NCBI GenBank assembly: GCA_903894655.1 | Contig: CAITQY010000050.1 | Coordinates: forward strand, 1 to 34,709 | DNA length: 34,709 bases | Reading direction: 5' to 3' | Origin: an uncultured Gemmatimonadota bacterium | GTDB lineage: Bacteria; Gemmatimonadota; Gemmatimonadetes; Gemmatimonadales; Gemmatimonadaceae | Shown here: positions 3,142-20,937 of the stretch, in pieces | Position numbering within the stretch: position 1 is the stretch's first letter | Layout of the letters: each line of letters starts with the position of its first letter | Notes under the pieces: generated by a model | Databases searched by the model: none | What the model was told of the DNA's origin: nothing | Seen by the model: only the letters and a program-made list of their open reading frames with translations | Program-made: the position numbers and the translations under genes

Positions 3142-3663
3142 TCAACGGGTGCGTGGGATCGCTTCGGATGCGTAGTGCCGATCCACGTGTGCACTCACGA
3201 AGGTCGATGCTGACGGGGCGCTGAGTAACGCCTCCACCACGGTGGGCGGCACGCCGCGATAGCGATAAATGCGATGGCCTAGGTATTTCACGAACAGATC
3301 GGCGGTGGCACTGTTGTAGCCCACGGAGATGATGTTCGACGGCGTCACGAAGATTTCGAGCACCGAGGGATCGGGAAATCCGTCGCGCGATGCCACCGCG
3401 GGTACATGCACCGGTGCGTGTTCACCATCGCCATCGCGCTCGAGCGCCGCCAGCAAGAACGCATACGCGTCATTGATCGCCGTCGCCCGTTCAACGGCAA
3501 CAGCATGCGTCGCCTGACCGTGATGACGATCCGGATGCCACTGCGCAATTAGCGGTCGGTAGGCGGCGTTGAGCTGGTCGATTGTGCGAACCGTACGAAG
3601 CCCGAGCACCGCGCACTGCGCGGAGAACGCGGCGCCGTTTCGCCACGAGGACGCTCCTGCCAA
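3142..3663 (-). CDS. J-domain protein fused to a C-terminal KTSC domain
   Basis: J-domain pattern LNAAYRPLIAQWHPDRHHG...AINDAYAFLL with HPD; C-terminal SVGYNSATADLFVKYLGHRIYRYRGVPPTVVEALLSAPSASTFVSAHVDRHY matches the KTSC pattern with central YxY. Start is TTG as given in the ORF track. Confidence 0.8.
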   Translation of the reverse strand: MAGASSWRNGAAFSAQCAVLGLRTVRTIDQLNAAYRPLIAQWHPDRHHGQATHAVAVERATAINDAYAFLLAALERDGDGEHAPVHVPAVASRDGFPDPSVLEIFVTPSNIISVGYNSATADLFVKYLGHRIYRYRGVPPTVVEALLSAPSASTFVSAHVDRHYASEAIPRTR

Positions 3664-6160: not shown

Positions 6161-6298
6161 TCGCGAATCGCGTCGACGCACAGCGCCGACGCCATAGGCA
6201 CCTGGGGCCCCGTTGCCGGAAACTTGCATTTCACGGCCTACGGGGCACCTTCACCGCAGCAGATCCTTTCGTCCCGCTCCAATCTCCGGAGATCCTCC

Positions 6299-8272
6299 TT
6301 GAAGAGCCCTGCACCTTCGTCCTGTGGCGGCGCACACCGCGTCCTCCTCGCCGCGGCGACCATTCTCGTCGCCACCGGCACCGCGCTGCAGGCCCAAACT
6401 CCGGTGCATCCGCTCGATCAGCTCTCGGCTAAGGAGCACTGGGCGATCTACGACGCGCTGCAGGCGTCGGGCAAGCTCGACTCCACCTTCCGCCTGCTGT
6501 ACGAGGGGCTCAAGGAACCGGCCAAGAGCGCCGTGCTGGCGTGGCAGCCGGGGCAGCCGCTCACGCGCGAAGCCACGGTGCATCTCACGCAGGGGAAGTT
6601 CGGGTACGAAGCGGTGGTGGACATCACGGGCAAGAAGCTGGTGTCGTGGACGCAGCTGCCCGGCAAGCAGTTCATGAACAGCGGCCCCGAATCAGACGCG
6701 GCGGAAGCCGTCGCCATGAAGGACCCGCGGGTGAAGGCGGCACTGCGCCAGCGTGGGGTGACCGATTTCACCCATGTGTCCTGCAGCCCGGCCAACAACG
6801 GGTATTTCGATTTGCCCGAGGAGCGCAACACGCGCGTGTTGCACGTGACCTGCGGCGATGAACGCGGTCGCATCTCCGGCTACGGTGAGTCGTTCAGCGG
6901 GTTTGTGGTCGTGGTGGATCTCACCAACGAAAAGGTGCTGCGCATCGTGGACGTGGCCAGCGCGCGCAGCGGACTGCCCGACGGGCATTCGCCCGAGGAA
7001 ATCGGTCCCACGCGCGCCGCCGTGAATGCGGTGACGATGGTGCAACCCAAGGGCGCGTCATACACGCTGAACGGACACGAAGTCGCGTGGCAGAACTGGA
7101 AGTTCCATTTCCGCATGGACATGCGTCGCGGCCTGGTGCTTTCGCGCGTGCGCTACGTCGATGCCGGCAAGGAACGCTCGGTCATGTATCAGGGCTCGTT
7201 GTCGGAGCTGTTCGTGCCATACATGGACCCCACCGATCCGTGGAACTACCAGGGCTACTTCGACCTCGGCACCTACCCGTTTTCGTTCGGCGGCATCGCC
7301 AGCTCGCTCGAGCCCGGCGTGGAGTGCCCGGAGTACGCCACCTACTTCCACAGCTATGTGGTGACCGCGAAAGGCGCCCCGCGCGAGCGTCAGCGCACGG
7401 CGTGTTTGTTCGAGCGCAACACCGGAGACGTGGCGTGGCGGCACACGCGCGCCGGCGGCGGCGTGAACGAAGCGCGGCCGCGTACCGATCTCGTGCTGCG
7501 CATGTACATGAACGCCGGCAACTACGACTACCTGTTCGACTGGGTGCTGGGCCAGGATGGCGCGATCACGGTGAACCTGGGCGCCACGGGTATGGACCAG
7601 GTGAAGGCGGCCAGCGGCACGCCCAAGGACAACGACTACGGGCGGATGATCGCCAACAAACTCGTGGGCGTGAACCACAGCCACTTCTTCTCGTTCCGTC
7701 TCGACATGGATGTGGACGGCACGCAGAACTCGTTGATGGTAGACAAGCTGCAGACCACCACGCTGCCCAAGGAGAATCCGCGGCGCAGCGTCTGGACGGT
7801 GAATACGCTCACGGCGCAAACGGAGAAGGATGGCATGCGCAGGTCGGCCATGAATGCGCCGGAAGTGTGGCGCATTGTGAATCCGGCGGTGAACAACCCG
7901 TTCGGGTGGCCGGTGGGCTACGAAATCGAAGGCCACGGCGCGATGTCGCTGATGAGTCCCGACGACTACATGCGCCAGCGCGCCGGCTTCGTGGATCATA
8001 CGCTCTGGACCACGCCGTACGCGCCGGCCGAGCTGTACGCGAGCGGCGACTATCCCACCAACAGCGTGGCCGGTGACGGCCTCCCGAAGTGGACGTCCGC
8101 TAACCGCGCCATCGCCAATACCGACGTGGTCACCTGGCTCACGCTCGGCTTCCATCATGTGCCGCGCCCGGAAGACTGGCCCGTGATGCCGGTGGCGTGG
8201 CACAGCTTTGCGATCAAGCCCGTGGGTTTCTTCGGGCGCAGTCCGTCCCTCGACATTCCGCGCCAACGGTAA
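6299..8272 (+). CDS. Copper amine oxidase (primary-amine oxidase)
   Basis: TPQ-type motif NAGNYDYLFDW (Tyr codon 7523-7525), Cu ligands NHSHFFSF and a C-terminal GFHHVPRPEDWPVMP, catalytic-base region YFDLGTYPFSFGG. TTG start at 6299 gives a signal peptide and has GGAG upstream; the ORF track opens at 6224. Confidence 0.88.
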   Translation: MKSPAPSSCGGAHRVLLAAATILVATGTALQAQTPVHPLDQLSAKEHWAIYDALQASGKLDSTFRLLYEGLKEPAKSAVLAWQPGQPLTREATVHLTQGKFGYEAVVDITGKKLVSWTQLPGKQFMNSGPESDAAEAVAMKDPRVKAALRQRGVTDFTHVSCSPANNGYFDLPEERNTRVLHVTCGDERGRISGYGESFSGFVVVVDLTNEKVLRIVDVASARSGLPDGHSPEEIGPTRAAVNAVTMVQPKGASYTLNGHEVAWQNWKFHFRMDMRRGLVLSRVRYVDAGKERSVMYQGSLSELFVPYMDPTDPWNYQGYFDLGTYPFSFGGIASSLEPGVECPEYATYFHSYVVTAKGAPRERQRTACLFERNTGDVAWRHTRAGGGVNEARPRTDLVLRMYMNAGNYDYLFDWVLGQDGAITVNLGATGMDQVKAASGTPKDNDYGRMIANKLVGVNHSHFFSFRLDMDVDGTQNSLMVDKLQTTTLPKENPRRSVWTVNTLTAQTEKDGMRRSAMNAPEVWRIVNPAVNNPFGWPVGYEIEGHGAMSLMSPDDYMRQRAGFVDHTLWTTPYAPAELYASGDYPTNSVAGDGLPKWTSANRAIANTDVVTWLTLGFHHVPRPEDWPVMPVAWHSFAIKPVGFFGRSPSLDIPRQR

Positions 8273-11200
8273 ATGAACCGGTTGCTCATCCTGGGATTGC
8301 TTGCCGCCCTGGTCGCGCCACGCCACGCCGGCGCGCAGGGTCGCGAGACCGACACCCTAAGCACCGCGTCAGCGCTCGCGCGCGTGTCGTATCTCACGCA
8401 GCTGGATCTGCTCGACGATACGCGAAGCGACGAGGCCCGCTGCGGCGCCGCCGCGTCGCTGAACGCGTATCTGTTGCTGGGCGGAGATGTCGACGTGGTG
8501 GCGCGACTGCTTGGCCTGCCGGTAGACCATACGATCGGTACGGCGCATCGGGTGCAAGACTACCTGTATCGACACGCCGATGTGGATGGCGTGGCGGGGC
8601 TGATCGGGTCCACCAAACCGATCGTCAACGCGAGTGGCGCGATCGTCACCTCGCGTCGTTCGGCGGCCGATGAGTTTCATCGCATCCTCGACGTGCTGGG
8701 ACTCCGCGCGGAACCGCTCTTCGGAACCACGCTGGCCACCATGGGAGACCGCACGCGCGCGGTGGAGGCCTATCTGCGTCGCGCGGGGGATGCCGTGTTC
8801 ATCGTGGGCGCCGATGCCGACATCAGTCGTGGCGCACGACCGAGCCGGGCCCCCACGGCAAGTTCGGCGAATCACTATATCGTCCTCGCACGCGTGGCCG
8901 GCGCGTGGCAGAAAGTGGATAGCTGGTACCGCCCCGGTCAGCGCACCGTGTCGCCAATCTCCGAGGCCGAGGTGCGGGGGTTCCTGCACAACACACCGGT
9001 CACCCCGTGGGGCATCGTGCGCGACGCGAACAGTGCACCGCGGCTGGCGCAGGTGGGCTACCGCACCCCACCAGAGGGGAGCGACCTGACGCGCGCGACA
9101 ACGCGCACGGCGACGGCACCACGCGCAGCAACGCCACGTGCAGAAACACCACGTGCGCCGACACCGCTCGCACCGCTCGACGTGTTTCGCTTGGAAACCG
9201 CCAACGATCCGCGCCTCTCGCCCGATGCGAAGCGCATCGTGTACGTGCGACAGAGTTACGACATCATGCGCGACAGCAAGCGGTCGCAACTCTGGATGGT
9301 GAATGCCGACGGATCGTCGCATCGACGGCTGACTGCAGCGGACGGCAATGATCGCGCCCCGCAATGGACCCCGACGGGCGACGCCATTGTCTATCTGTCG
9401 GACGTGGACGGCACCACGCAGCTGTTCCGGCGCAATGTGAACGGTGAGGAGACGGTACGGCTCGCGACCTTGCCCGCCGCGCCGGAATGGTTCGCCGTCT
9501 CACCCGACGGGTCGCAGATCGCGTTCGCGATGCTGGTCGCGTCGCCGTCGCGCGTCCCGACTGGATTACCAGTCGCGCCGCAGGGCGCCACGTGGGCGCC
9601 GCCGGCGATCGTGGCCACCGATGTTCAGTACCGCAGCGATGGTGCCGGTCTGCTACCAACCGGTCGCGCTGAGTTGTTCGTGGTGCCGTCCGCTGGTGGC
9701 ACGCCGCGCCGCCTGACCTCCGGTGGGGTGCTGCAGTTCGGCCGCGCCTACGGCGCGACGCCAGGCATCTGGGCACCCGATGGCACCTCGCTCATTGTGA
9801 CCGCGAACGGCAATCCGTCACCCGATCTCACCGCGCGGTCGTCCGACCTGTTCGAGGTCCGCGTGCGCGACGGCGCCGTGACGCCCGTGTTCCGTCGTCG
9901 CGGCACGAACCGATCGCCCGCGGTGTCGCCCGGTGGGAAGTGGCTCGCCTTTGTCAGCGTGGCCGATTCCGGTCACGCCTGGACGCAACCGCGGCTGTGG
10001 CTGATGTCGCGCGAGGCCGACGCGAAGCCCAAGCTGCTGTCAGCCGGGTTCGATGCGGCCGTCGAGAGCCCCGCGTGGCTCCCCGACGGGAGTGGATTGC
10101 TCTTCTTGGCCGATCGCGAAGGGCGGGCCGGCCTGTGGCGCATCGCGCTCGACGGGTCGACTTCGCTAATGGCCGACTCCCTGGCGAGCGATCTGCAAGC
10201 GTACGGCGGGGGACAGGCCTTCTCGCTCAGTCGTAGCGGTGCTCTGGCAATGACCCGTGGATCGGCGATGTCACCGGGGGACCTCTGGTTCACCGCTCCC
10301 GGTGACACACGAGCGACGCGTCTCACGGCGGTGAACGACGACCTGCTCGCCGAGCGGCAGGTGGGACAGGTGAGTTCCTTCTGGTCGAAGTCCTCGAAAG
10401 ATGGTCTACCGATTCAGTCGTGGGTCATCACGCCTCCCGGCTACACGCCCGGTAAGAAATATCCGCTGATTCTCGAGATCCACGGCGGTCCGTTCATGGC
10501 GTATGGCGATCGGTTCGATCTCGAGAAGCAATGGATGGCGGCGCAGGGCTACGTCGTGCTCTACGTGAATCCGCGCGGCTCCACCAGTTACGGCGAAGCG
10601 TTTGCGCGGCTCATCGACAAGACGTATCCCGGCAACGATGCCGACGATCTGTTGACCGCGGTCGATTCGCTGGTCGCGCGCGGCATGGCGGATCCGGCAC
10701 AGCTGTACGTGACCGGCGGCAGCGGTGGTGGATTGCTCACCGCGTGGCTCACCGCGAGCACGTCGCGATTCCGGGCGGCGGCGGTGCTGTATCCCGTCGT
10801 GAATTGGACCAGCGAAGTGTTGACCGCGGACATGGGCGCAAATTTTCAGGGACACTGGCTGCGGGGGACGCCGTGGGAGAATCCCACGCATTACTGGGCA
10901 CAATCACCCTTGTCGCGCGTGGCGAGCGTGCAAACCCCAACCCTCGTGATGGGTGGAGACGCCGACTATCGCACGCCCTTTGGCCAATCGGAAGAGTGGT
11001 TCACCGCCCTCCGCTTGCGCGGCGTTCCCACCGAACTCGTGCGACTGCCGGGCGAACCGCATGGGGCGCGCGTTCGGCCCAGTCACTACATGGCGAAGGT
11101 GGCGTATATCACGGATTGGTTCGCGCGGCACCGTGACACGCCGTGCTGCGCACTGCGATCGGCCGAACACACCGATGCGCTCACCGCCTTTGCCGACTCG

Positions 11201-12211
11201 GCCGCCCGTGGCGACTTCGGCTACGTCGACGCGCTGCACGTGATGCGCGATGGCGTGCCCCTCATCTCGCGCACCTTTCCGCGCAGCTATACCGGGGTGT
11301 ATCCGATGAAATCGCCGCCGGGCACGTACAACTATCAAGATACAAACTGGCATCCGTTCTATCAGGGCAGTGCGCTGCACACGTTGCAGTCGGTCAGCAA
11401 GAGCATCACGTCGCTGGCGTACGGCGTGGCCATCACGCGCGGCGCGATCACCACGATCGATCAGCCCATTGCCCGCTTCCTGCCAGCGCATGCCAACGCC
11501 TTTCGCGATTCGGTGCGAAAGCAGATCACGATCCGGCATTTACTCACGATGACGTCGGGCATCGACTGGCCGGAGGGCGGCGGCTACGGCAGCAATGACG
11601 ACATCACGCAACGCATGGAGACCAGCGCCGATTGGGTGTCGATGGTGCTCGCGCAACCGATGGCCACCACACCGGGGAGCAGCTACCACTACAACGACGG
11701 CGCCGCGGCGCTGTTGGCCGAAGTGTTCCGTGGCGCGACCGGCATGGACCTGCAAGCGTACGCCGACCAGTATCTGTTTGCCCCGCTCGGCATCACGCGC
11801 TTCCACTGGAAGCGCTCGTCGGGTGGACTCACCGATTCCGAAGGGGGCGTGTACCTCGAGCCGTCGGACCTCGCCAAGATCGGTCAGCTCATGCTGGATC
11901 AGGGCGTGTGGAACGGTACGCGGTTAGTGAGCGCGGCGTGGGTGGCCGAGTCGGTGCGCGGGCAACTGCCCACCAAGCCCGGGCAGCCCCCCATGCGCAC
12001 GAACTACGGCCTGATGTGGTGGACCGTCGGTCCGGGCGTACTGCAGGATGCCGGCGCGTTTTCCGCGCGGGGGTACGGCGGACAATATCTGTTCGTCTTC
12101 CCGAAAACGCGCACCGTGGCGGTGTTGAATCAGTGGATGTTCAAGGGACAGGAGATCTCTGCCCTCGAGTTCGCGCGGCGCATCGAGAAGGCATTGGCGA
12201 CGATGCCGTGA
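8273..12211 (+). CDS. Three-hydrolase fusion: C39-like cysteine peptidase domain + S9 prolyl-oligopeptidase-like peptidase + class C beta-lactamase-like serine hydrolase
   Basis: Signal peptide; DEARCGAAASLNAYLLLGG (Cys57) with NHYIVLARV (His201) and KVDSW; TolB/WD40-like propeller; S9 triad VTGGSGGGLL (Ser817), GGDADYRTP, GEPHGARV; then SVSKS (Ser1040, SxxK) and YHYNDG (YxN). No stop across 1312 codons. Confidence 0.85.
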   Translation: MNRLLILGLLAALVAPRHAGAQGRETDTLSTASALARVSYLTQLDLLDDTRSDEARCGAAASLNAYLLLGGDVDVVARLLGLPVDHTIGTAHRVQDYLYRHADVDGVAGLIGSTKPIVNASGAIVTSRRSAADEFHRILDVLGLRAEPLFGTTLATMGDRTRAVEAYLRRAGDAVFIVGADADISRGARPSRAPTASSANHYIVLARVAGAWQKVDSWYRPGQRTVSPISEAEVRGFLHNTPVTPWGIVRDANSAPRLAQVGYRTPPEGSDLTRATTRTATAPRAATPRAETPRAPTPLAPLDVFRLETANDPRLSPDAKRIVYVRQSYDIMRDSKRSQLWMVNADGSSHRRLTAADGNDRAPQWTPTGDAIVYLSDVDGTTQLFRRNVNGEETVRLATLPAAPEWFAVSPDGSQIAFAMLVASPSRVPTGLPVAPQGATWAPPAIVATDVQYRSDGAGLLPTGRAELFVVPSAGGTPRRLTSGGVLQFGRAYGATPGIWAPDGTSLIVTANGNPSPDLTARSSDLFEVRVRDGAVTPVFRRRGTNRSPAVSPGGKWLAFVSVADSGHAWTQPRLWLMSREADAKPKLLSAGFDAAVESPAWLPDGSGLLFLADREGRAGLWRIALDGSTSLMADSLASDLQAYGGGQAFSLSRSGALAMTRGSAMSPGDLWFTAPGDTRATRLTAVNDDLLAERQVGQVSSFWSKSSKDGLPIQSWVITPPGYTPGKKYPLILEIHGGPFMAYGDRFDLEKQWMAAQGYVVLYVNPRGSTSYGEAFARLIDKTYPGNDADDLLTAVDSLVARGMADPAQLYVTGGSGGGLLTAWLTASTSRFRAAAVLYPVVNWTSEVLTADMGANFQGHWLRGTPWENPTHYWAQSPLSRVASVQTPTLVMGGDADYRTPFGQSEEWFTALRLRGVPTELVRLPGEPHGARVRPSHYMAKVAYITDWFARHRDTPCCALRSAEHTDALTAFADSAARGDFGYVDALHVMRDGVPLISRTFPRSYTGVYPMKSPPGTYNYQDTNWHPFYQGSALHTLQSVSKSITSLAYGVAITRGAITTIDQPIARFLPAHANAFRDSVRKQITIRHLLTMTSGIDWPEGGGYGSNDDITQRMETSADWVSMVLAQPMATTPGSSYHYNDGAAALLAEVFRGATGMDLQAYADQYLFAPLGITRFHWKRSSGGLTDSEGGVYLEPSDLAKIGQLMLDQGVWNGTRLVSAAWVAESVRGQLPTKPGQPPMRTNYGLMWWTVGPGVLQDAGAFSARGYGGQYLFVFPKTRTVAVLNQWMFKGQEISALEFARRIEKALATMP
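9116..9175 (+). repeat. Four 15-nt units encoding a Pro/Ala/Thr-rich linker
   Basis: Translates in frame as APRAA-TPRAE-TPRAP-TPLAP, between the C39-like and S9 domains. Confidence 0.85.
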
Positions 12212-12220
12212 CGACCGCGT

Positions 12221-15200
12221 TCACTTGATCACGAGCAGGATGCCTTTGCCCGGCGCCAACGTAATGGCCTCGCCCGTCGGGACCGTGCGCGCCTGCTGCA
12301 AGGCGCCAACCGCGGGCGCAACAATGGTCGCCCGCGTCGGATCGATACCAAGCGCGCCGAAATCGATCGTCGGGACGATGCGCACGGTGTCGGCCGCCCA
12401 ACTCGCGATAGCGACCAGCGCGCGGCCTTCCTGTCGGAACACGGTTGCCTTGACGTCCTCACGTCCGGTCCGCACTTGCACGTTGGGCGACCAATAGCCG
12501 AACAGCTTCGCGCCCTGCATCCCGAAATCATCCCAGAGCTTCCAGAGTGGACGGGGATCGGCGTTGTCGGACCATGGCATGCGGTTCGTCATTCCGTACA
12601 CCATGCCGCGCCACGGGTTGCCACCACCCTCGAGCATCTCGCCCATCAAGCCGAAGGGGATGCCGCTGACCTCGGTCATCCAGAAGTCGGACGGACTCTT
12701 CTCGTAATCGAAGTACTCGCCGAACCAGAGCCGGTCGATGTACGGAAAGAGTTCCATGTACAGCATCGCGCTGTTGATGAATCCATCGCGCTCGTTGTAC
12801 TGGTTGGCAGAATGGAGGTCGAGGATGCCCGGTCTCCCGTCCTGCCGGAGCATGCGGCGCACCCGTTTCATCGTGGTGCGGTCGAATGCGACATCGTCGA
12901 GGTACAGTCCGTCGATACCGACGTTCTTCACGAGCCAGCTGATGCCCTCGACGTAGTAGTTGTGCCAGCGGCTCATGCCGCTGTTCACGACGGCGGCGTC
13001 CTTGAGCGTGGGCACGAACCAGGCGGCGATGAAGTCGTCCTCGAGGTGCTCCTGAAGCCAGGAGTATCCGCCGCCGGGACCGGAGGAGTAGATCTCATGG
13101 CCGAGCGACCGCAGCGCGTAGGTTTCGAAGGCGCGGTTGGAGAGCTCGCGGACGGTGTTGTAGATCTTGACCTGCAGCCCGCGACGGTGCGCCTCGTCGA
13201 TGTACGCCTTCATCTCGCGATGCGCGATGAACGGATAGTTGATGTACGGGTTGATGGCGTTGGCGTGGTGGATATTCACGACCGACGCGCCGGCGGCGAT
13301 GACCGAGTCCACGGGCGAGTAGCGGTGATAGAAGCGCCGCGACCACTGCGCATCGGTATCGAGGGGATGAAACGGCGTGACCAAAAAGCGCGCGTCAAAG
13401 CGCAGCGTGTCGCCGCTCTGCATCGTGCGCGCACCGCTGGTGGCGCGTACCACGACCGCCGTCGGTGCGTCGCGCCACGTAATGCGACCCGCGCCGGCAT
13501 TGCCCCACGAGGACGGGAGCAGCAGCGGCTTCTGCAGATAGAAATTGGTATTCAGCGGGCGCACATAGTGCTCATCCCGCAGCGTGAACGAGAGGCCGGC
13601 ATTCACGCCACCAAGCCAGGCACCATCCTGATTCTTCTTCGCAACGTCCCAGCGCCAGTCCAGCAGGGGCGGACGCTGCTGCCCCTTGAGACCGAGTCCC
13701 ATCGCGTAGGTGGCGGCGCTGCGCGCATACGGTATCTCGAGCGCGACATCAGCGAGCGACACGGTGCGCTTGGCGCGGAGCCGCATCTCGTAGCTGAGAT
13801 TGCCGTCGAATTCGAGTGTCCCGCGCACCTCGAGGTCCCACGCGCCCGCCTCGGTAGTGGCCGTCCACTGCACGGTGCCCGGCTCCTGGCGAGTGAAGCG
13901 GAAATCGCCGGACGGTGATACGCGCGCGCCTGACTCCGCGCCCGACGCCTCAGGCGACGGCACCGGCATGACGTCGAGACGCATGGGCGCGGCCAGCACG
14001 GGATTCGCCGTGGTACCGATCCCCGTCATCTCGGGCGTGAAGAACGTCTCGATGTTCGCCGGAAGCCCGTTCGCACCAAGCGTGATGCGTCGGCCGAGGA
14101 TGCGCAGCGTGCGTCCCTCCACGGCGATTGGCGTGTAAGGAGCGATGACGTCGTTGCGCTGGCCGAGCGTGGAGTTGAGCCAACGCAGGCGTGTGAGCTT
14201 CTCGGGCTCGTCCGCACCGCCGGCCAGTACCGAGTCGGCCCGCACGACCACCGTGAGGCGCACCGTCACGGGCGCGGTCCCGTCGGCGATGATCGTCGCC
14301 TCGCCCGTGTATGTCCCGGGGGCCGCGCGTAACGGCACGTCGAGGCCACACCACATCGCTTGCACCTGGCCCGCGGGCACATCGACCCGAGCGGTAAAGG
14401 CGCGCGCGTCCCAGCCGATCCCGCCGTTGTTGATCGAAGTGAGCCGCGCAGCGGGGAGCGTGTGCGTGCCGTTGCGCAGATCGCCGAACACGACCTTCAC
14501 GTTGCGCAGCGACTGCATCGCGTACACGCCCAGCTGGAAGGCCAGGAACTCACCGCGGCGCGCCTGATCGCGGAAGGTCGTGGTCGGGCCGCGCACCGCC
14601 CACCGCTGCGGCAGTTGGTCGCGCATGCGAATCGAATGCATCCGGTCCTCGGGGAAGACGAGGAACGGCTGGCGCTGCTGCTGACGTCGGAGCGACTCGA
14701 CCTCACTCGGCGTGGCAATCACTTGCATGGGTGCGAACGCATTGAGCGAGTCGACCGCTTCGAAGCGGAGCACGCGCGCCGTGGGTGCGTTGGTATCACG
14801 CAGCGCCCCGAGCCAAGCGGGATCCGCCGTCGCCGTGTCAGGCAGATAGGTGACACTCGGATAGTTGGAGCGGCCGCCCGACTTATACGGCAGGTAGTAC
14901 AGGTAGTAGCGTCCCGGTCCGTCGATCGGCTCAAAGGCAAATTCACCGAGTGCCTGCGTGGTCGAGCGCCGGAGCACGTTCGTCACGCGCCGATTGGTTC
15001 GGGCGGCGACCACGATCACGCCCTTGCTGTTCGGGTTCCGGTCGGGACGCCGCCACGCGACACCGGCGAGCACGAATCGCCCCGGGGTCGTGACATCGAC
15101 GACCGCGCGGTGGTTCCCGTACACCTCGGAATCCCAGGCGGAAGCAGCGACCGTAAACGGTTGGGCGGCGAGCGGCGTGACCGCCACGGCCATTAGCGCG

Positions 15201-15223
15201 AGCGCGACGAGAGTCTGATGCAT
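12221..15223 (-). CDS. Large secreted glycoside-hydrolase-like protein (DUF6067-like)
   Basis: Signal peptide from MHQTLVALALMAVAVTPLAAQ; GLYLDDVAFDRTTMKRVRRML, YMELFPYIDRLWFGEYFDYEKSPSDFWMTEVSGIPFGLMGEML resemble TIM-barrel DUF6067 proteins. Confidence 0.7.
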   Translation of the reverse strand: MHQTLVALALMAVAVTPLAAQPFTVAASAWDSEVYGNHRAVVDVTTPGRFVLAGVAWRRPDRNPNSKGVIVVAARTNRRVTNVLRRSTTQALGEFAFEPIDGPGRYYLYYLPYKSGGRSNYPSVTYLPDTATADPAWLGALRDTNAPTARVLRFEAVDSLNAFAPMQVIATPSEVESLRRQQQRQPFLVFPEDRMHSIRMRDQLPQRWAVRGPTTTFRDQARRGEFLAFQLGVYAMQSLRNVKVVFGDLRNGTHTLPAARLTSINNGGIGWDARAFTARVDVPAGQVQAMWCGLDVPLRAAPGTYTGEATIIADGTAPVTVRLTVVVRADSVLAGGADEPEKLTRLRWLNSTLGQRNDVIAPYTPIAVEGRTLRILGRRITLGANGLPANIETFFTPEMTGIGTTANPVLAAPMRLDVMPVPSPEASGAESGARVSPSGDFRFTRQEPGTVQWTATTEAGAWDLEVRGTLEFDGNLSYEMRLRAKRTVSLADVALEIPYARSAATYAMGLGLKGQQRPPLLDWRWDVAKKNQDGAWLGGVNAGLSFTLRDEHYVRPLNTNFYLQKPLLLPSSWGNAGAGRITWRDAPTAVVVRATSGARTMQSGDTLRFDARFLVTPFHPLDTDAQWSRRFYHRYSPVDSVIAAGASVVNIHHANAINPYINYPFIAHREMKAYIDEAHRRGLQVKIYNTVRELSNRAFETYALRSLGHEIYSSGPGGGYSWLQEHLEDDFIAAWFVPTLKDAAVVNSGMSRWHNYYVEGISWLVKNVGIDGLYLDDVAFDRTTMKRVRRMLRQDGRPGILDLHSANQYNERDGFINSAMLYMELFPYIDRLWFGEYFDYEKSPSDFWMTEVSGIPFGLMGEMLEGGGNPWRGMVYGMTNRMPWSDNADPRPLWKLWDDFGMQGAKLFGYWSPNVQVRTGREDVKATVFRQEGRALVAIASWAADTVRIVPTIDFGALGIDPTRATIVAPAVGALQQARTVPTGEAITLAPGKGILLVIK

Positions 15224-15300
15224 GGTCGCAAAATTACCGGCTACTGGCGGAACGGCTACCACGAAAGCATCGGACGGCGCTCGCGGCGCGATCGAGTCTT

Positions 15301-16185
15301 CTACGCAAGGACGTCGGGCAACCGCGTTTCCCCACCCGTCACGCCAAGCCGAGCGATGATCGCGGCGGCGTGCGGGTAGCGCGCCGTCAGATCATCCACG
15401 CGCCCGGCCTCGAAACAGTCGGGTGTGAATCCCGGCGCCATCGTACATCCGAACAGCGCATGCCGGCCACCGGGGAGCAGACACCCGGCCTGCCACGTAC
15501 CGGCCGGAACTACGTACTGCACCTGCTGACCCTCGAGGGGATCCGTACCCATCAACACGTCGCTGGTGCTGCCGTCCTCGTGCAGCAGATGCAGCACGAA
15601 CGGATCGCCGGCATAGGCGTGCCACACTTCGTCGCGTGTGAGTCGATGAAAGCGCGACAGGCTGCCTAACGTCTCGGCATAGCAACCGATCATGGCGGTG
15701 CCGGCAGGCGCAGCCGTGGTGTCCCCATCGGTCGAGCGCCACGTCTCGCGATACAGGGTGCCTTCGATCGGCAGTCGCATGAATCGATATTGGCGGAGCA
15801 GAGCCATAGTGTCGGCAGGCACCGCCACTCCCGGAAAGTGCGCAAGCTCCATCACGTCGACGATCGCCGCCAGGTCGATGGGCCCGTAGCAGTGCGGGTA
15901 CAGCTCACCACCCACGGTGTCCTTCGGTGACGACGAGGGCAGCGGTGCCGGTGGCTCGTACACAAGCCGCGCCGTCAGCAGCGTGGGATCGATGACGAGC
16001 AGCACGAGATCGGGCACACCGGCGAAGTACGCCGCGGCGGTCGGCAACACTTGATGCGCACGCGACAGATGGATGAAGCCCTCGCCATCGAGGCTGTCAG
16101 CGCGGTAATGGCCCGCCGCCCGCGCCTGCACCGCCGCCTCGCGGTGACAGATATGAAAGACAGCAGAATCGTGTGCGACAGTCAT
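15301..16185 (-). CDS. DUF952 + Cupin_5 (DUF985) fusion protein
   Basis: N-terminus FHICHREA...GFIHLSRAHQV...LLVIDPTLL...ELYPHCYGPID (DUF952); C-terminus YRETWRS...FHRLTRDEVWHAYAGDPFVLHLL...VPAGTWQAGCLLPGGRHALFGCTMAPGF (Cupin_5). Confidence 0.85.
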   Translation of the reverse strand: MTVAHDSAVFHICHREAAVQARAAGHYRADSLDGEGFIHLSRAHQVLPTAAAYFAGVPDLVLLVIDPTLLTARLVYEPPAPLPSSSPKDTVGGELYPHCYGPIDLAAIVDVMELAHFPGVAVPADTMALLRQYRFMRLPIEGTLYRETWRSTDGDTTAAPAGTAMIGCYAETLGSLSRFHRLTRDEVWHAYAGDPFVLHLLHEDGSTSDVLMGTDPLEGQQVQYVVPAGTWQAGCLLPGGRHALFGCTMAPGFTPDCFEAGRVDDLTARYPHAAAIIARLGVTGGETRLPDVLA

Positions 16186-16275: not shown

Positions 16276-17682
16276 TTACGGCGTGATTTTCTTCGGTGCC
16301 TGCTGCTTGATCTTCTCCATGTACTTTTGGAAGAAGAGCTTGTGGATGTCCATCATGTTGATCTCACGACCCTGGATGTACGACTGGATGATGTTGCTCG
16401 TCATGTCCAGCGGCGTACCAGTAGTGATCAGCAGCGTGGCTTCCTTGCCGACTTCCAGTGAGCCTACCTTGTCGGAAATGCCCATCGACTCGGCGGCGTT
16501 GATCGTCACCGCCTTGAGCGCTTCTTCCTCGGGCAAGCCGAACGCTACGGCGACACCGGCTTCCCACGGCAAGCGATAGCTGTAGAGGCCACCGCTGCCA
16601 CCGGCAATCGCGAACTTCACACCAGCCGCGTGCAGCTTGCCCGGCGTGGCGTAGGCGTTGTCGTAGCTCTCGTACTGCCGGTCGGGCGCCGACATCGTGG
16701 ACGTGAGAATCACCGTGATCTTTTCCGCCTTGAGGCGATCGGCAACGAACAGCGCATCACGCCCGCCGCGAATCACCAGCTTCACGCCCTCGGCCTTGGC
16801 CCACGTGATCGCGTCGTTGATCTGCGCCGCGCCTTCAGCGGCCACCACCACGGGGATCGCGCCATCGAGCGCCGGAATCATGGCGGCGTAGCGTGAATCC
16901 GTGCGTACGGTCTGATTGGACTTCACAGCGTCGCGATACGCACGGGCCTCGGAGAACCACTCCTTGATCTGCTCCACCTGTTCGGCATAGGTCTTCGGTG
17001 GCGGACCGGCCGGACCACCGCGACCGCCGGGACCACCACCGCCGAACCGGCCGCCCGGCCGCGCATTGGGGTCGGGCCACTTCACGTTGAGCGCGGCCGC
17101 GCCCTTCATCGACATCTCTTCCCACGTCCAGCCTTCCAGCGACATCGCCGACGACAGCCCGGAAATCACGCCACCCTCCGGCGTGCTGAAGGCCACCAAC
17201 ACGCCCGCCGAACGCGTCGTACCGATGTGCCGGCTCTCCGCGTTCACCGCGACTTCGGCACGCACATTCGGATTGAAGTCGCCCTGTTCGCGGATGTCAT
17301 TCGACACGTCGACCGAACCGATCTCGGTGAGACCGACCGTGCTGTAGGCGTCGATGAGACCGGGATAGATGTGCTTGCCGGCCAGATCCACCACCTTGGC
17401 GCCGCGTGGTACTGCTACCTCAGGGCCGCCGATCGCCGTGATCTTGCCGCGATCGAGCACGATCGTACCATTGGTGATCGTCCCCTTGGTGACCGTGTGG
17501 ATCGTGGCGCCGCGCAGCACGACCGGCTGCTCCTGCGGTGCCACCGTCATGCGCTCCTGCGCGATCGCCGCGCGAGGGGCAAGCAGTCCGGCCACCGCCG
17601 TCGCCAGCGCCAGCGTCGCGAGGCGCGCAGTGGTGTTCATGGTTCGCATGGTGTGATTGGTCGAAAGGAATGGACAGATCAC
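16276..17682 (-). CDS. Amidohydrolase-like secreted protein, probably lacking the metal-binding HxH
   Basis: Amidohydrolase composite fold AKVVDLAGKHIYPGLIDAYSTVGLTE (HxH absent), ALKAVTINAAESMGISDKVGSLEVGKEATLLI. Start could be GTG 17682, ATG 17649 or ATG 17640. Confidence 0.85.
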   Translation of the reverse strand: MICPFLSTNHTMRTMNTTARLATLALATAVAGLLAPRAAIAQERMTVAPQEQPVVLRGATIHTVTKGTITNGTIVLDRGKITAIGGPEVAVPRGAKVVDLAGKHIYPGLIDAYSTVGLTEIGSVDVSNDIREQGDFNPNVRAEVAVNAESRHIGTTRSAGVLVAFSTPEGGVISGLSSAMSLEGWTWEEMSMKGAAALNVKWPDPNARPGGRFGGGGPGGRGGPAGPPPKTYAEQVEQIKEWFSEARAYRDAVKSNQTVRTDSRYAAMIPALDGAIPVVVAAEGAAQINDAITWAKAEGVKLVIRGGRDALFVADRLKAEKITVILTSTMSAPDRQYESYDNAYATPGKLHAAGVKFAIAGGSGGLYSYRLPWEAGVAVAFGLPEEEALKAVTINAAESMGISDKVGSLEVGKEATLLITTGTPLDMTSNIIQSYIQGREINMMDIHKLFFQKYMEKIKQQAPKKITP

Positions 17683-20675
17683 TTGCGCGCTCCTTCACCG
17701 CCGCGACCACGCGCCGGACCAGCAGCGGGCGTCTCGGTGGCACCGGCCGCGATCACGGCCTGAATGAGTTGCGCGCGCTGCTTGGCGACATCCTCGCGGA
17801 GCACCTTGTCGTCGTCGAGCGCGAAATACTTCTTGCCGTCCACCCACGTCTGCTCGGCCTTGGTGAACTGGGACAGCGGGTTGCCGTTCCAGATCACGAA
17901 GTCGGCGTCCTTGCCGGCTTCGAGCGAGCCCAAGGTCTTGTCGACCGCGATGGCCTTGGCCGCGTTGATCGTGACCGTCGAGAGGGCGTCGATTTCGTTC
18001 ACGCCTGAGCGGAGCAGCTTGCCCGCTTCCCAGTTCATGCGCGTCGAGATTTCCGCGTCGTCGGAGTGCAGCGACGTGACCACGCCCGCTTCCATGAGCA
18101 GACGCGCGTTGTACGACGTGGCATCATACGCCTCGAGCTTGAACGCGCCCCAGTCGCTCCACACCACCGCCGCCACCCCCGACTTCTTGAGTTCACTGGC
18201 GATCTTGTACGCTTCCACGCCATGCTGCAGCGTCTGGATGCGGAAGCCGAATTCCTCGGCGAGGCGAACCAGCGCCAGAAACTCGTCGGCGCGATAGCCG
18301 TGCGACGACACGAGCAGCTTCTGGTTGAGGATGTCGAGCAGTGCTTCCATGCGCAGATCCTTGCGCGGCGGAAGGCCCGTCTTCGTCTTCTCCCAGGCCT
18401 TCCATTCCTTCTCGTAGTCACGCGCGGCCAGGAAATGGTCGCGAATGATTTCCTGCACGCCCATGCGCGTGTTGGGATAGCGCGTCTGGCTGCGCTTTGG
18501 GTTTTCGCCGAGCGCGAACTTCACGGTGCGCGGCGCGCCCACGATCTTGTACTCGTCGGGGAGCGAGCCCCACCGGATTTTTACGAACACGTTCTCGCCG
18601 CCGATCGGATTGGCCGACCCGTGCTTGATCATCGTGGTGGTGAGTCCGCCGGCGAGCTGACGATAGAACCAGATGTTGTTGTGCGTGAGCACATCGCCCA
18701 TCTGCACTTCGGGGACGATCGCGAAGCCCGATTCGTTCACATCGCTCACACCTGAGTGCGTGTGCGGATCGATGAGTCCCGGGGTGACGTGCTTGCCGGT
18801 GGCGTCGATGATCACGGCGCCGGCGGGCGCGGCGAGCTTCTGCCCCACGCGCACGACCTTACCCGCCTGCACCAGCAGGTCGGCGTTTTCCAAGCGACCC
18901 TGCGAACCCTGCGTCCACACCGTGGCGTTGCGCACCAGCAGCACAGCCGGCTGTGCCGGCGCCGCTGCGCGGCCGAACTCCATCGACGGCCGGACGAACG
19001 GCAGGTCGATCTTCGGCACCTTCACCGCCACCGTACCACGGGCGGGACCTTCGAAGGCTTCGGTGCGCGCGCCGCGATAGCGGGCGTCGGTCCCGTTCGG
19101 GAGCGACAGCCAGCCGAAGAACGTCGTGTCACTCACCGAGCCGGCCAGCAGCAGCGAGCCTTCCTGCCCAAGCGGCTCGCCGGCGAACGTCGCTTCCAGA
19201 CGACCGGTCTCGGCGATGATCCGCACCGCCGTGAGCGGCACCGGGCGACGACCGGGCATTTCCACCGTGCCACGGATGCGATTGAGCGGCCCTTCGAGAC
19301 GCAGCGTGACGTTCTTGAACGTGCCGGCATCGTCGGAGGTGATCGCCCATGTGCCGCGGGGGTCCACCTGCGGCGGTCGCGTAACACCGTACTGCCGTCC
19401 CTGCACCCACACGTCGCGTACGGCCGACTCTTCGGTGAAGAGATCGCCCTCGCTGATCACGAAATTGGCCGCCTTGCCGACGGCGATCGTGCCGTGCGTC
19501 TTCTCGATGCCAAGGAACGTGGCGGGCACGGTCGTGAGCGCCGCCAGCGCCTTGTCGGGCGCGAGGCCACGTGCCACGGCAGTGCGGAGATTGGGAAGGA
19601 ACTGCGTGAGCGAGGAGAGGCCGTCGGCGGTGATGGCGAACGGCACGCCGGCGGCAGCCAGCTGCGCCGGGTTGGTGGGCGCGAGGTACCAGTGGCGGAG
19701 ATCGGCCAGCGACACGTTGGCGGCCGCTTCCGGGCTCGACACGTTCGGCGCGTCGGGGAAGTTCAGCGGCAGCACCATCGGCTGCGGGCGACCCTTCAGC
19801 ACGTCGAGCAGCCGGTATTCCTGACCGTTGCCGCGAAACCACGGCGTGAGCTTGTAGTCCTGCGCGAGCTTGTAGGCGCGGAGGTATTCCTCCTCGCTCC
19901 GGGTCTCGAACATGACCGGCTGCGTTCCCTTCACGGCTTTGCCGAGGGCCGCCAGCGCCTCACTCGTTTCCGGCGGCAGCAACGAGCGGCCACTCGTTTC
20001 GTAGGCCCCCCACGCGCGGCCATACCACTCGGCGTCCATCAACGTCTGCTTCATGAGCGCGACGGTGCCCATGGAGGAGTTGGGATACATGCCGCCAAGG
20101 GCGAAGGAACGCTGGAAGCCCACCGCCTGCGCGAGATCGGGGCGCAGCACGCGTTCGCGCACACCGGCGTCGCCGAGGCTGACCACCGAGGCGGTGCCGC
20201 GGAAGATGCCCTGACGCGGCACGGCCAGTGCCGTCCCGAAGCCGAGCGAGCGCAGCGCGGTGCGACGCGTGGAGTCGTCCTTGAAATTGGCGGTCGTGCT
20301 GAACCACGCGCGCACCTGCGGATTCCAATGCGTCGGTCCCACGTCGCCACCCTGCGGCGGCGCGTCACCGCCAAGGTCGGCGGAGGCATCGACGAAGCCC
20401 GGATAGACCGTGAGGCCCTTGAGGTCCCACACACGGGCGCCAGCGGGCGCCGCCATGCCGGCGCCGACGGCGGTGATGAGCCCGTTGCGGACGACGATCG
20501 TGGCGTTGGTCAGGACCTGGCCGGGGGCGGTGACGACGCGCGCGCCCACCAGGGCGTGGTAGCCCGTGCTGTTGTCGCGCAGGCCGGTCACCGGCTCCGT
20601 GCGCGAGGACTGCTGGGCCTCGAGCGATCCGGCAGCAAACGCCGCCACGCCGAGGAGGAAACGAAACGCTCTCAC
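17679..20675 (-). CDS. Tandem two-domain amidohydrolase (first domain degenerate, second with intact HTH)
   Basis: Domain 1: LKGLTVYPGFVDASADLGG; domain 2: TGKHVTPGLIDPHTHSGVSD, TLQHGVEAYK, SLHSDDAEIS. GTG at 20675 gives signal peptide VRAFRFLLGVAAFAAGSLEAQ; the ORF track opens at 20900. Confidence 0.85.
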   Translation of the reverse strand: MRAFRFLLGVAAFAAGSLEAQQSSRTEPVTGLRDNSTGYHALVGARVVTAPGQVLTNATIVVRNGLITAVGAGMAAPAGARVWDLKGLTVYPGFVDASADLGGDAPPQGGDVGPTHWNPQVRAWFSTTANFKDDSTRRTALRSLGFGTALAVPRQGIFRGTASVVSLGDAGVRERVLRPDLAQAVGFQRSFALGGMYPNSSMGTVALMKQTLMDAEWYGRAWGAYETSGRSLLPPETSEALAALGKAVKGTQPVMFETRSEEEYLRAYKLAQDYKLTPWFRGNGQEYRLLDVLKGRPQPMVLPLNFPDAPNVSSPEAAANVSLADLRHWYLAPTNPAQLAAAGVPFAITADGLSSLTQFLPNLRTAVARGLAPDKALAALTTVPATFLGIEKTHGTIAVGKAANFVISEGDLFTEESAVRDVWVQGRQYGVTRPPQVDPRGTWAITSDDAGTFKNVTLRLEGPLNRIRGTVEMPGRRPVPLTAVRIIAETGRLEATFAGEPLGQEGSLLLAGSVSDTTFFGWLSLPNGTDARYRGARTEAFEGPARGTVAVKVPKIDLPFVRPSMEFGRAAAPAQPAVLLVRNATVWTQGSQGRLENADLLVQAGKVVRVGQKLAAPAGAVIIDATGKHVTPGLIDPHTHSGVSDVNESGFAIVPEVQMGDVLTHNNIWFYRQLAGGLTTTMIKHGSANPIGGENVFVKIRWGSLPDEYKIVGAPRTVKFALGENPKRSQTRYPNTRMGVQEIIRDHFLAARDYEKEWKAWEKTKTGLPPRKDLRMEALLDILNQKLLVSSHGYRADEFLALVRLAEEFGFRIQTLQHGVEAYKIASELKKSGVAAVVWSDWGAFKLEAYDATSYNARLLMEAGVVTSLHSDDAEISTRMNWEAGKLLRSGVNEIDALSTVTINAAKAIAVDKTLGSLEAGKDADFVIWNGNPLSQFTKAEQTWVDGKKYFALDDDKVLREDVAKQRAQLIQAVIAAGATETPAAGPARGRGGEGARK

Positions 20676-20773
20676 AGAGGGCTCGGGATACGGGAGGGGA
20701 AGTTCGAACGGAGCATTGGAAGTATGAGGCGTAGGCGCCCGCGCGTCGAGGAGCAGACGTCGCCGATTGGCAA

Positions 20774-20806
20774 CCGGGAGGGAGCCGGGAGGGAGTCGGG
20801 AGGCTG
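20774..20806 (+). repeat. 11-bp imperfect tandem repeat (CCGGGAGGGAG x2 + TCGGGAGGCTG)
   Basis: Read directly: CCGGGAGGGAG CCGGGAGGGAG TCGGGAGGCTG. Confidence 0.85.
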
Positions 20807-20937
20807 GCGAGCGCCGGAAGCACAGGTCCGGCAACAGGGCATACGCACCTTTTTCGAAACGTCCGACCGGCGCGCACGTTGCACGGGTCCATAATCTCAT
20901 GTGTTCTCCCGGTCGTCACCTCACCTTGGTCTCCGTC

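Follow-up and report, generated by a model that had tools for sequence, protein, structure and literature searches.

Can three different hydrolases work as parts of a single exported polypeptide, and if so, on what kind of substrate? This question is raised by a 34,709-nucleotide stretch of DNA from an uncultured bacterium of the family Gemmatimonadaceae (hereafter the window), in which the forward strand carries an open reading frame (ORF) at positions 8273 to 12211 that encodes 1312 residues with no internal stop codon. An earlier note on this DNA described the product as one secreted chain with three fused hydrolase domains, and both the uninterrupted frame and the Sec-type N-terminus agree with that description. 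The protein, which is predicted to be exported out of the cytoplasm, would consist of a signal peptide, an orphan papain-fold (probably Josephin-like) thiol-hydrolase domain, an S9C peptidase and an S12/NylB-type serine amidase-esterase. We estimate a probability of about one half that this fusion is an extracytoplasmic degrader of peptides or peptide-like amides.

The window lies on contig C50 of an assembly that has 793 contigs and is 80% complete, and therefore an artefact had to be excluded. A genus-wide survey recovered the intact three-part ORF from 6 of 30 genomes, which represent six species. Copies that are 92-94% identical are present in the independently assembled metagenome-assembled genomes (MAGs) Loclat, MiH, RE and Baikal-G1, and a diverged but intact copy (74-83% identity per domain) resides at a different locus in G079, a genome of 30 contigs and 99% completeness. 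No frameshift or missed stop separates the domains in these MAGs or in G079. Moreover, Cys57, His201, Asp216, Ser817, Asp898, His930, Ser1040, Lys1043 and Tyr1140 are identical in all six sequences checked, even at dS above 1. The ratio of nonsynonymous to synonymous substitution rates (dN/dS) ranges from 0.04 to 0.19 across comparisons in all three domains. Relative to G079, where dS is 1.2-1.4, it is 0.13 in the N-terminal domain, 0.11 in both the propeller and the S12 part, and 0.06 in the S9 catalytic part. The ORF is genuine and conserved, and all three domains are maintained, each under purifying selection.

The second domain is, with certainty as judged from its family matches, an S9 propeller joined to an S9C-type catalytic domain. 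Pfam places Peptidase_S9 at residues 748-953 (E 9e-50) and identifies PD40 propeller repeats, and a search of PDB sequences aligns the S9 peptidase 8wt1 over the whole propeller and catalytic region (E 5e-87). As in other members of the S9 family (PF00326, S9C-like), the propeller precedes an alpha/beta-hydrolase domain with a Ser-Asp-His triad in family positions. The 8wt1 alignment assigns these positions to S817, D898 and H930, the latter two in line with solved S9 enzymes. The full-length match, the two-part layout and the triad are common to S9C peptidases of the acylaminoacyl or oligopeptidase type (8wt1, 5yzm and Dpp5-like). However, the window protein is fused on both sides, reads GGSGGG around the serine where these enzymes have GGSYGG, and scores under the NCBIfam Dpp5 cut-off.

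The third domain can be classified with equal certainty, from its profile match, as a PF00144 serine hydrolase, given that Pfam matches Beta-lactamase at residues 990-1285 (E 9e-33) with 114 bits relative to a curated cut-off of 27. The SxxK and Tyr residues expected of family S12 (S1040, K1043 and Y1140) are invariant. Its nearest PDB entries are 8rlj, Lsa45 and the 6-aminohexanoate-dimer hydrolase NylB, and a carboxylesterase and transesterases are also matched. These alignments place the domain nearest to NylB/esterase-type S12 enzymes rather than class C beta-lactamases. The SxxK motif, the Tyr and alignment over the whole domain are shared with the 8rlj, Lsa45 and NylB type, whereas the window domain carries YND at the Tyr and belongs to a separate branch within the Gemmatimonadaceae, where most free-standing relatives read Y-S-S. 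GYGGQ or GFGGQ occupies the KTG region.

The N-terminal domain is a different matter. Residues 23-272 of the window copy match no family in Pfam, NCBIfam, PHROGs or PDB sequences. Shallow AlphaFold2 (AF2) models of the window sequence and of a differently cropped homologue, which are not fully independent of each other, reach predicted local distance difference test (pLDDT) values of 58.5 and 53.2. Both models share a layout in which a helix starting near Cys57 precedes a set of strands; His201 sits at, or immediately ahead of, the beginning of one strand, and Asp216 lies where the following strand ends. Foldseek ranks PaJOS (9g7g) first for the window model (E 0.004), with cathepsins and USP7 next in the list, and PcJOS (9fpa/9fn4) first for the homologue model (E 0.04 to 0.1). 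Josephin is also the sole Pfam family seen for any member of the group, in the G079 copy (E 0.15-0.17, 12.1 bits versus a cut-off of 26), which was used for neither model.

By sequence position only, C57, H201 and D216 follow a Josephin-like order, and the His-to-Asp spacing of 15 equals that between H119 and N134 of ataxin-3 (PMC2928749). The pattern H-x10-W-x3-[ND]-S was found nowhere else among about 0.70 million residues scanned. Josephin domains also have this W and S. Taken singly, these indications of a Josephin relationship are suggestive, none of them being significant alone. We consider it very probable that the domain has a papain-type fold, and we lean slightly toward Josephin as the nearest branch of that fold.

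Outside the six fusions, relatives of the domain were detected neither in 180 genomes of the family (profile search) nor in 399 genomes of the phylum (single-sequence search). The weak matches that were inspected do not convincingly align Cys57 or His201, and the single sequence yielded only matches with E>1 among plasmids and none among phages. In the genomes searched, the domain was never found without the S9 and S12 domains.

The earlier note knew of no other chain with this order of domains. This holds for all three together, since no record in the collections searched, outside the six genomes, adds the N-terminal domain to an S9-S12 pair. It does not hold for the pair itself, because S9 followed by PF00144 is also encoded by Streptomyces and Embleya plasmids (e.g. 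WP_153182374, annotated as 'serine hydrolase'), with ten plasmid records of at least 80% coverage. The plasmid proteins have the S9 propeller and catalytic domain and then PF00144, in the same order as the window protein, but they lack a signal peptide and the N-terminal Cys domain, extend for an extra ~120 residues at the C-terminus and use a different S12 subfamily. The S9 and S12 domains of the window are 44% and 43% identical to free-standing Gemmatimonadaceae enzymes, compared with 31-34% and about 25-32% to the Streptomyces chain. Because both domains are closer to the free-standing enzymes, the alignments indicate that the S9-S12 fusions arose separately rather than by common descent. 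The new element is therefore the N-terminal thiol-hydrolase-like domain, as the pairing of S9 with S12 is already known and recurrent. Fusion at least twice in unrelated bacteria suggests that both activities act on one substrate class.

The history of the fusion within the family can be partly reconstructed. In a tree of S12 domains, the fusions and a stand-alone gene from G136, a member of another genus of the same family, form one well supported group with about 38-43% identity to other family members. The G136 gene (L022 1501-2766, reverse strand) encodes a signal peptide of the fusion type and an S12 domain, with the N-terminal and S9 domains missing. Its signal peptide matches that of the window at 15 of 22 residues, and its S12 domain is 78% identical to that of the window. 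We first favoured such a stand-alone S12 gene as the ancestral building block on account of the shared signal peptide. This became less likely because G136 pairs with G079 (87.5% identical S12, support 100/100) inside the fusion branch and apart from the freshwater clade. Although the root of the tree is not firmly placed, this grouping suggests that the fusion is probably the older state and that G136 lost the two domains by internal deletion between signal and S12. A single assembly event from free-standing parts, earlier than the split between the freshwater-clade and G079 gene lineages, is the probable origin of the fusion gene.

How might three such domains cooperate? Ordinary L-peptides would be trimmed by the S9 part, the S12 domain would attack what S9 enzymes leave uncut (D-residue amides or esters, for instance), and the N-terminal domain would open compact or isopeptide-type substrates. 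Family S12 is known to include D-aminopeptidase (PMC9053604). We infer export, the activity of each domain, the papain or Josephin fold, the substrate and the cooperation of the sites, and a processing line that acts on peptides, as proposed in the earlier note, is plausible.

Gene neighbourhoods of related proteins point the same way, in part by analogy. On two plasmids of Streptomyces, genes for an oligopeptide ATP-binding cassette (ABC) transporter adjoin and precede the S9-S12 gene. In one of them the gene row (NZ_CP045548, L120 2298-8359) continues after the fusion with genes for an M20 peptidase, a GNAT transferase and an enolase-superfamily menC-type protein. GNAT and N-succinylamino-acid racemase form part of a route from D- to L-amino acids, according to the text of PMC8762209 that cites Sakai 2006. 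The M20/GNAT/menC-type row, whose menC-type gene is only a putative racemase, resembles such a pathway, and the arrangement suggests the use of D-residue peptides. The G136 gene is flanked by one gene for an alpha/beta hydrolase and another for an amidohydrolase; the best NCBIfam model for the latter, under the cut-off, is PRK09061, a model formerly named D-glutamate deacylase. In G079, an amino-acid permease gene is present near the fusion on the same strand. Such surroundings are consistent with the catabolism of peptides or amino acids, in which S12 might act on bonds that S9 cannot cut.

The Gemmatimonas version, with a thiol-hydrolase-like domain that the libraries do not recognise, offers a testable entry to the use by lake bacteria of peptides left by ordinary peptidases. 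If this domain is truly Josephin-like, a family known to cleave ubiquitin would have an exported relative in surroundings where ubiquitin can hardly be expected as a substrate. We consider unlikely the boldest version, in which the domain is the first of a new family of exported, active thiol hydrolases of the Josephin-like kind and the fusion, with its three sites, dismantles isopeptide-linked or D-residue peptides (e.g. cyanobacterial or cell-wall peptides) in lakes; it would then represent a previously undescribed type of peptide degrader outside the cytoplasm.

Several observations dampen our enthusiasm for a three-site peptide degrader. The fold of the N-terminal domain is weakly supported, with pLDDT of 58 and 53, Foldseek E of 0.004 and 0.04, and TM scores below 0.35. 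The Josephin profile matches neither the window copy nor anything in its own genome, and the domain differs from PaJOS and PcJOS in having no significant sequence match to them, in belonging to an exported fused protein and in lacking the oxyanion Gln usually placed ahead of the Cys (here Cys57). In addition, no neighbour that was checked is conserved around the fusion gene in all species. Finally, the operon of the Streptomyces fusions, which arose independently and carry no signal peptide, serves as an analogy only.

The absence of the oxyanion Gln lends weight to an explanation in which the N-terminal domain retains the papain fold without being an enzyme, and instead binds substrate or cell wall as the head of a two-enzyme S9 and S12 peptidase. 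The replacement of Gly58 by Ser in G079 fits such a binding role, as does its dN/dS, which in every comparison is higher than that of the S9 catalytic part or the S12 part. However, Cys57, His201, Asp216 and Trp212 are invariant at dS >1, and papain-fold families without the canonical oxyanion residue exist (PMC10318531). We consider this explanation somewhat unlikely, although it is the strongest competitor of the three-hydrolase degrader.

The protein might serve detoxification instead of acting as a nutrient peptidase, if its S12 part acts mainly as an esterase or a hydrolase of beta-lactams or other antibiotics. PF00144 covers family VIII esterases and beta-lactamases, and the carboxylesterase and transesterases among the PDB matches could be read in this manner. 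The earlier designation of the domain as class C beta-lactamase-like was right about the superfamily (PF00144/S12) but wrong about the subgroup: the bla_class_C model reaches 11.9 bits against a cut-off of 415, and the YxN motif is not present, what had been taken for it being Y1140-N1141-D1142. With no resistance context among the neighbours scanned, detoxification seems unlikely.

Another role is brought to mind by the closest structural neighbours of the N-terminal domain, which are bacterial Josephin-like enzymes (Hermanns 2025, in the citing text of PMC12751079). The domain could be a deubiquitinase or clippase aimed at eukaryotic microbes. We judge this to be very unlikely in view of the Sec signal, the fusion to two ordinary hydrolase families and the attribution of the MAGs to a mainly free-living group for which no host link was seen.

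Slightly more improbable still is the peptide maturation line that the earlier note envisioned, with a C39-like domain that cuts GG-leader peptides and two further domains that trim what is released. The spacing of Cys and His fits any papain-fold peptidase loosely, but neither PF03412 nor PF13529 matches at E 10, no C39 signal emerged from Pfam, NCBIfam, PHROGs or PDB sequences, and no C39 structure is among the 50 listed Foldseek matches of either model (both models being poor). We rejected C39 membership for want of a match in any library. C39 enzymes usually read D-P where the N-terminal domain reads D-S, which counts against this assignment as well, and no leader-peptide exporter was noticed among the longer ORFs of the window.

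An assembly or frameshift artefact that merges adjacent genes, conceivable for a window drawn from a MAG of 793 contigs, is refuted by the same single frame in six genomes, including independent assemblies and one genome with 30 contigs and 99% completeness.

Table 1. Features of the fusion gene (positions in the window) and the evidence for each.
Feature	Residues	Position	Strand	Evidence
Sec-type signal peptide, MNRLLILGLLAALVAPRHAGAQ	1-22	8273..8338	+	sequence; no lipobox Cys
N-terminal domain, predicted papain-fold Josephin-like thiol hydrolase	23-272	8339..9088	+	AF2 models, Foldseek, dN/dS 0.11-0.19; no curated family
Putative nucleophile	Cys57	8441..8443	+	near start of predicted helix (model); invariant in six homologues
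Putative catalytic base, in H-x10-W-x3-D-S motif	His201	8873..8875	+	alignment, motif scan
Putative third catalytic residue	Asp216	8918..8920	+	alignment, motif scan
Ala/Pro/Thr-rich linker of variable length	273-300	9089..9172	+	homologue alignment
S9 beta-propeller with PD40 repeats	301-690	9173..10342	+	Pfam; 8wt1 alignment
S9C-type alpha/beta-hydrolase catalytic domain, triad S817/D898/H930	691-957	10343..11143	+	Pfam, 8wt1 alignment, invariance
S12/PF00144 serine hydrolase domain: S1040-x-x-K1043, Y1140-N-D, GYGGQ in KTG region	958-1312	11144..12208	+	Pfam, PDB matches, alignment
Stop codon of the fusion gene		12209..12211	+	sequence

The neighbours of the fusion in the window are genes for a copper amine oxidase, a GH123-type protein and amidohydrolases. 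The copper amine oxidase gene (6224-8272, forward strand) ends with a TAA directly before the ATG of the fusion. It also lies upstream in L016, where only part of it is present at the locus end, and was not found in L015. In L013, only about 60 bases that resemble its 3' end precede the fusion start, and the gene was probably deleted there. Given this distribution (the window, part of L016, a short 3' remnant in L013 and absence from L015), we rejected a functional link between the two genes.

On the reverse strand, positions 12221-15262 encode a 1013-residue protein that matches GH123_N (PF19543) over its full length of 969 positions. This protein adjoins the fusion in L013 and was not found at that place in L015 or L016. 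At 15301-16185 (reverse strand) lies a gene for a 294-residue protein in which DUF952 and Cupin_5 (DUF985) are fused, with matches in 16 of 30 genus genomes. The fusion gene is absent from the matching place in G271 and G299, the genomes with the closest version of this cupin gene. Two amidohydrolase genes on the same strand (16276-20900, reverse) overlap by 4 bases, and the larger encodes 1073 residues with repeated amidohydrolase matches. Elsewhere in the window, a short protein encoded at 3142-3663 (reverse strand) combines a DnaJ-like stretch with a KTSC domain.

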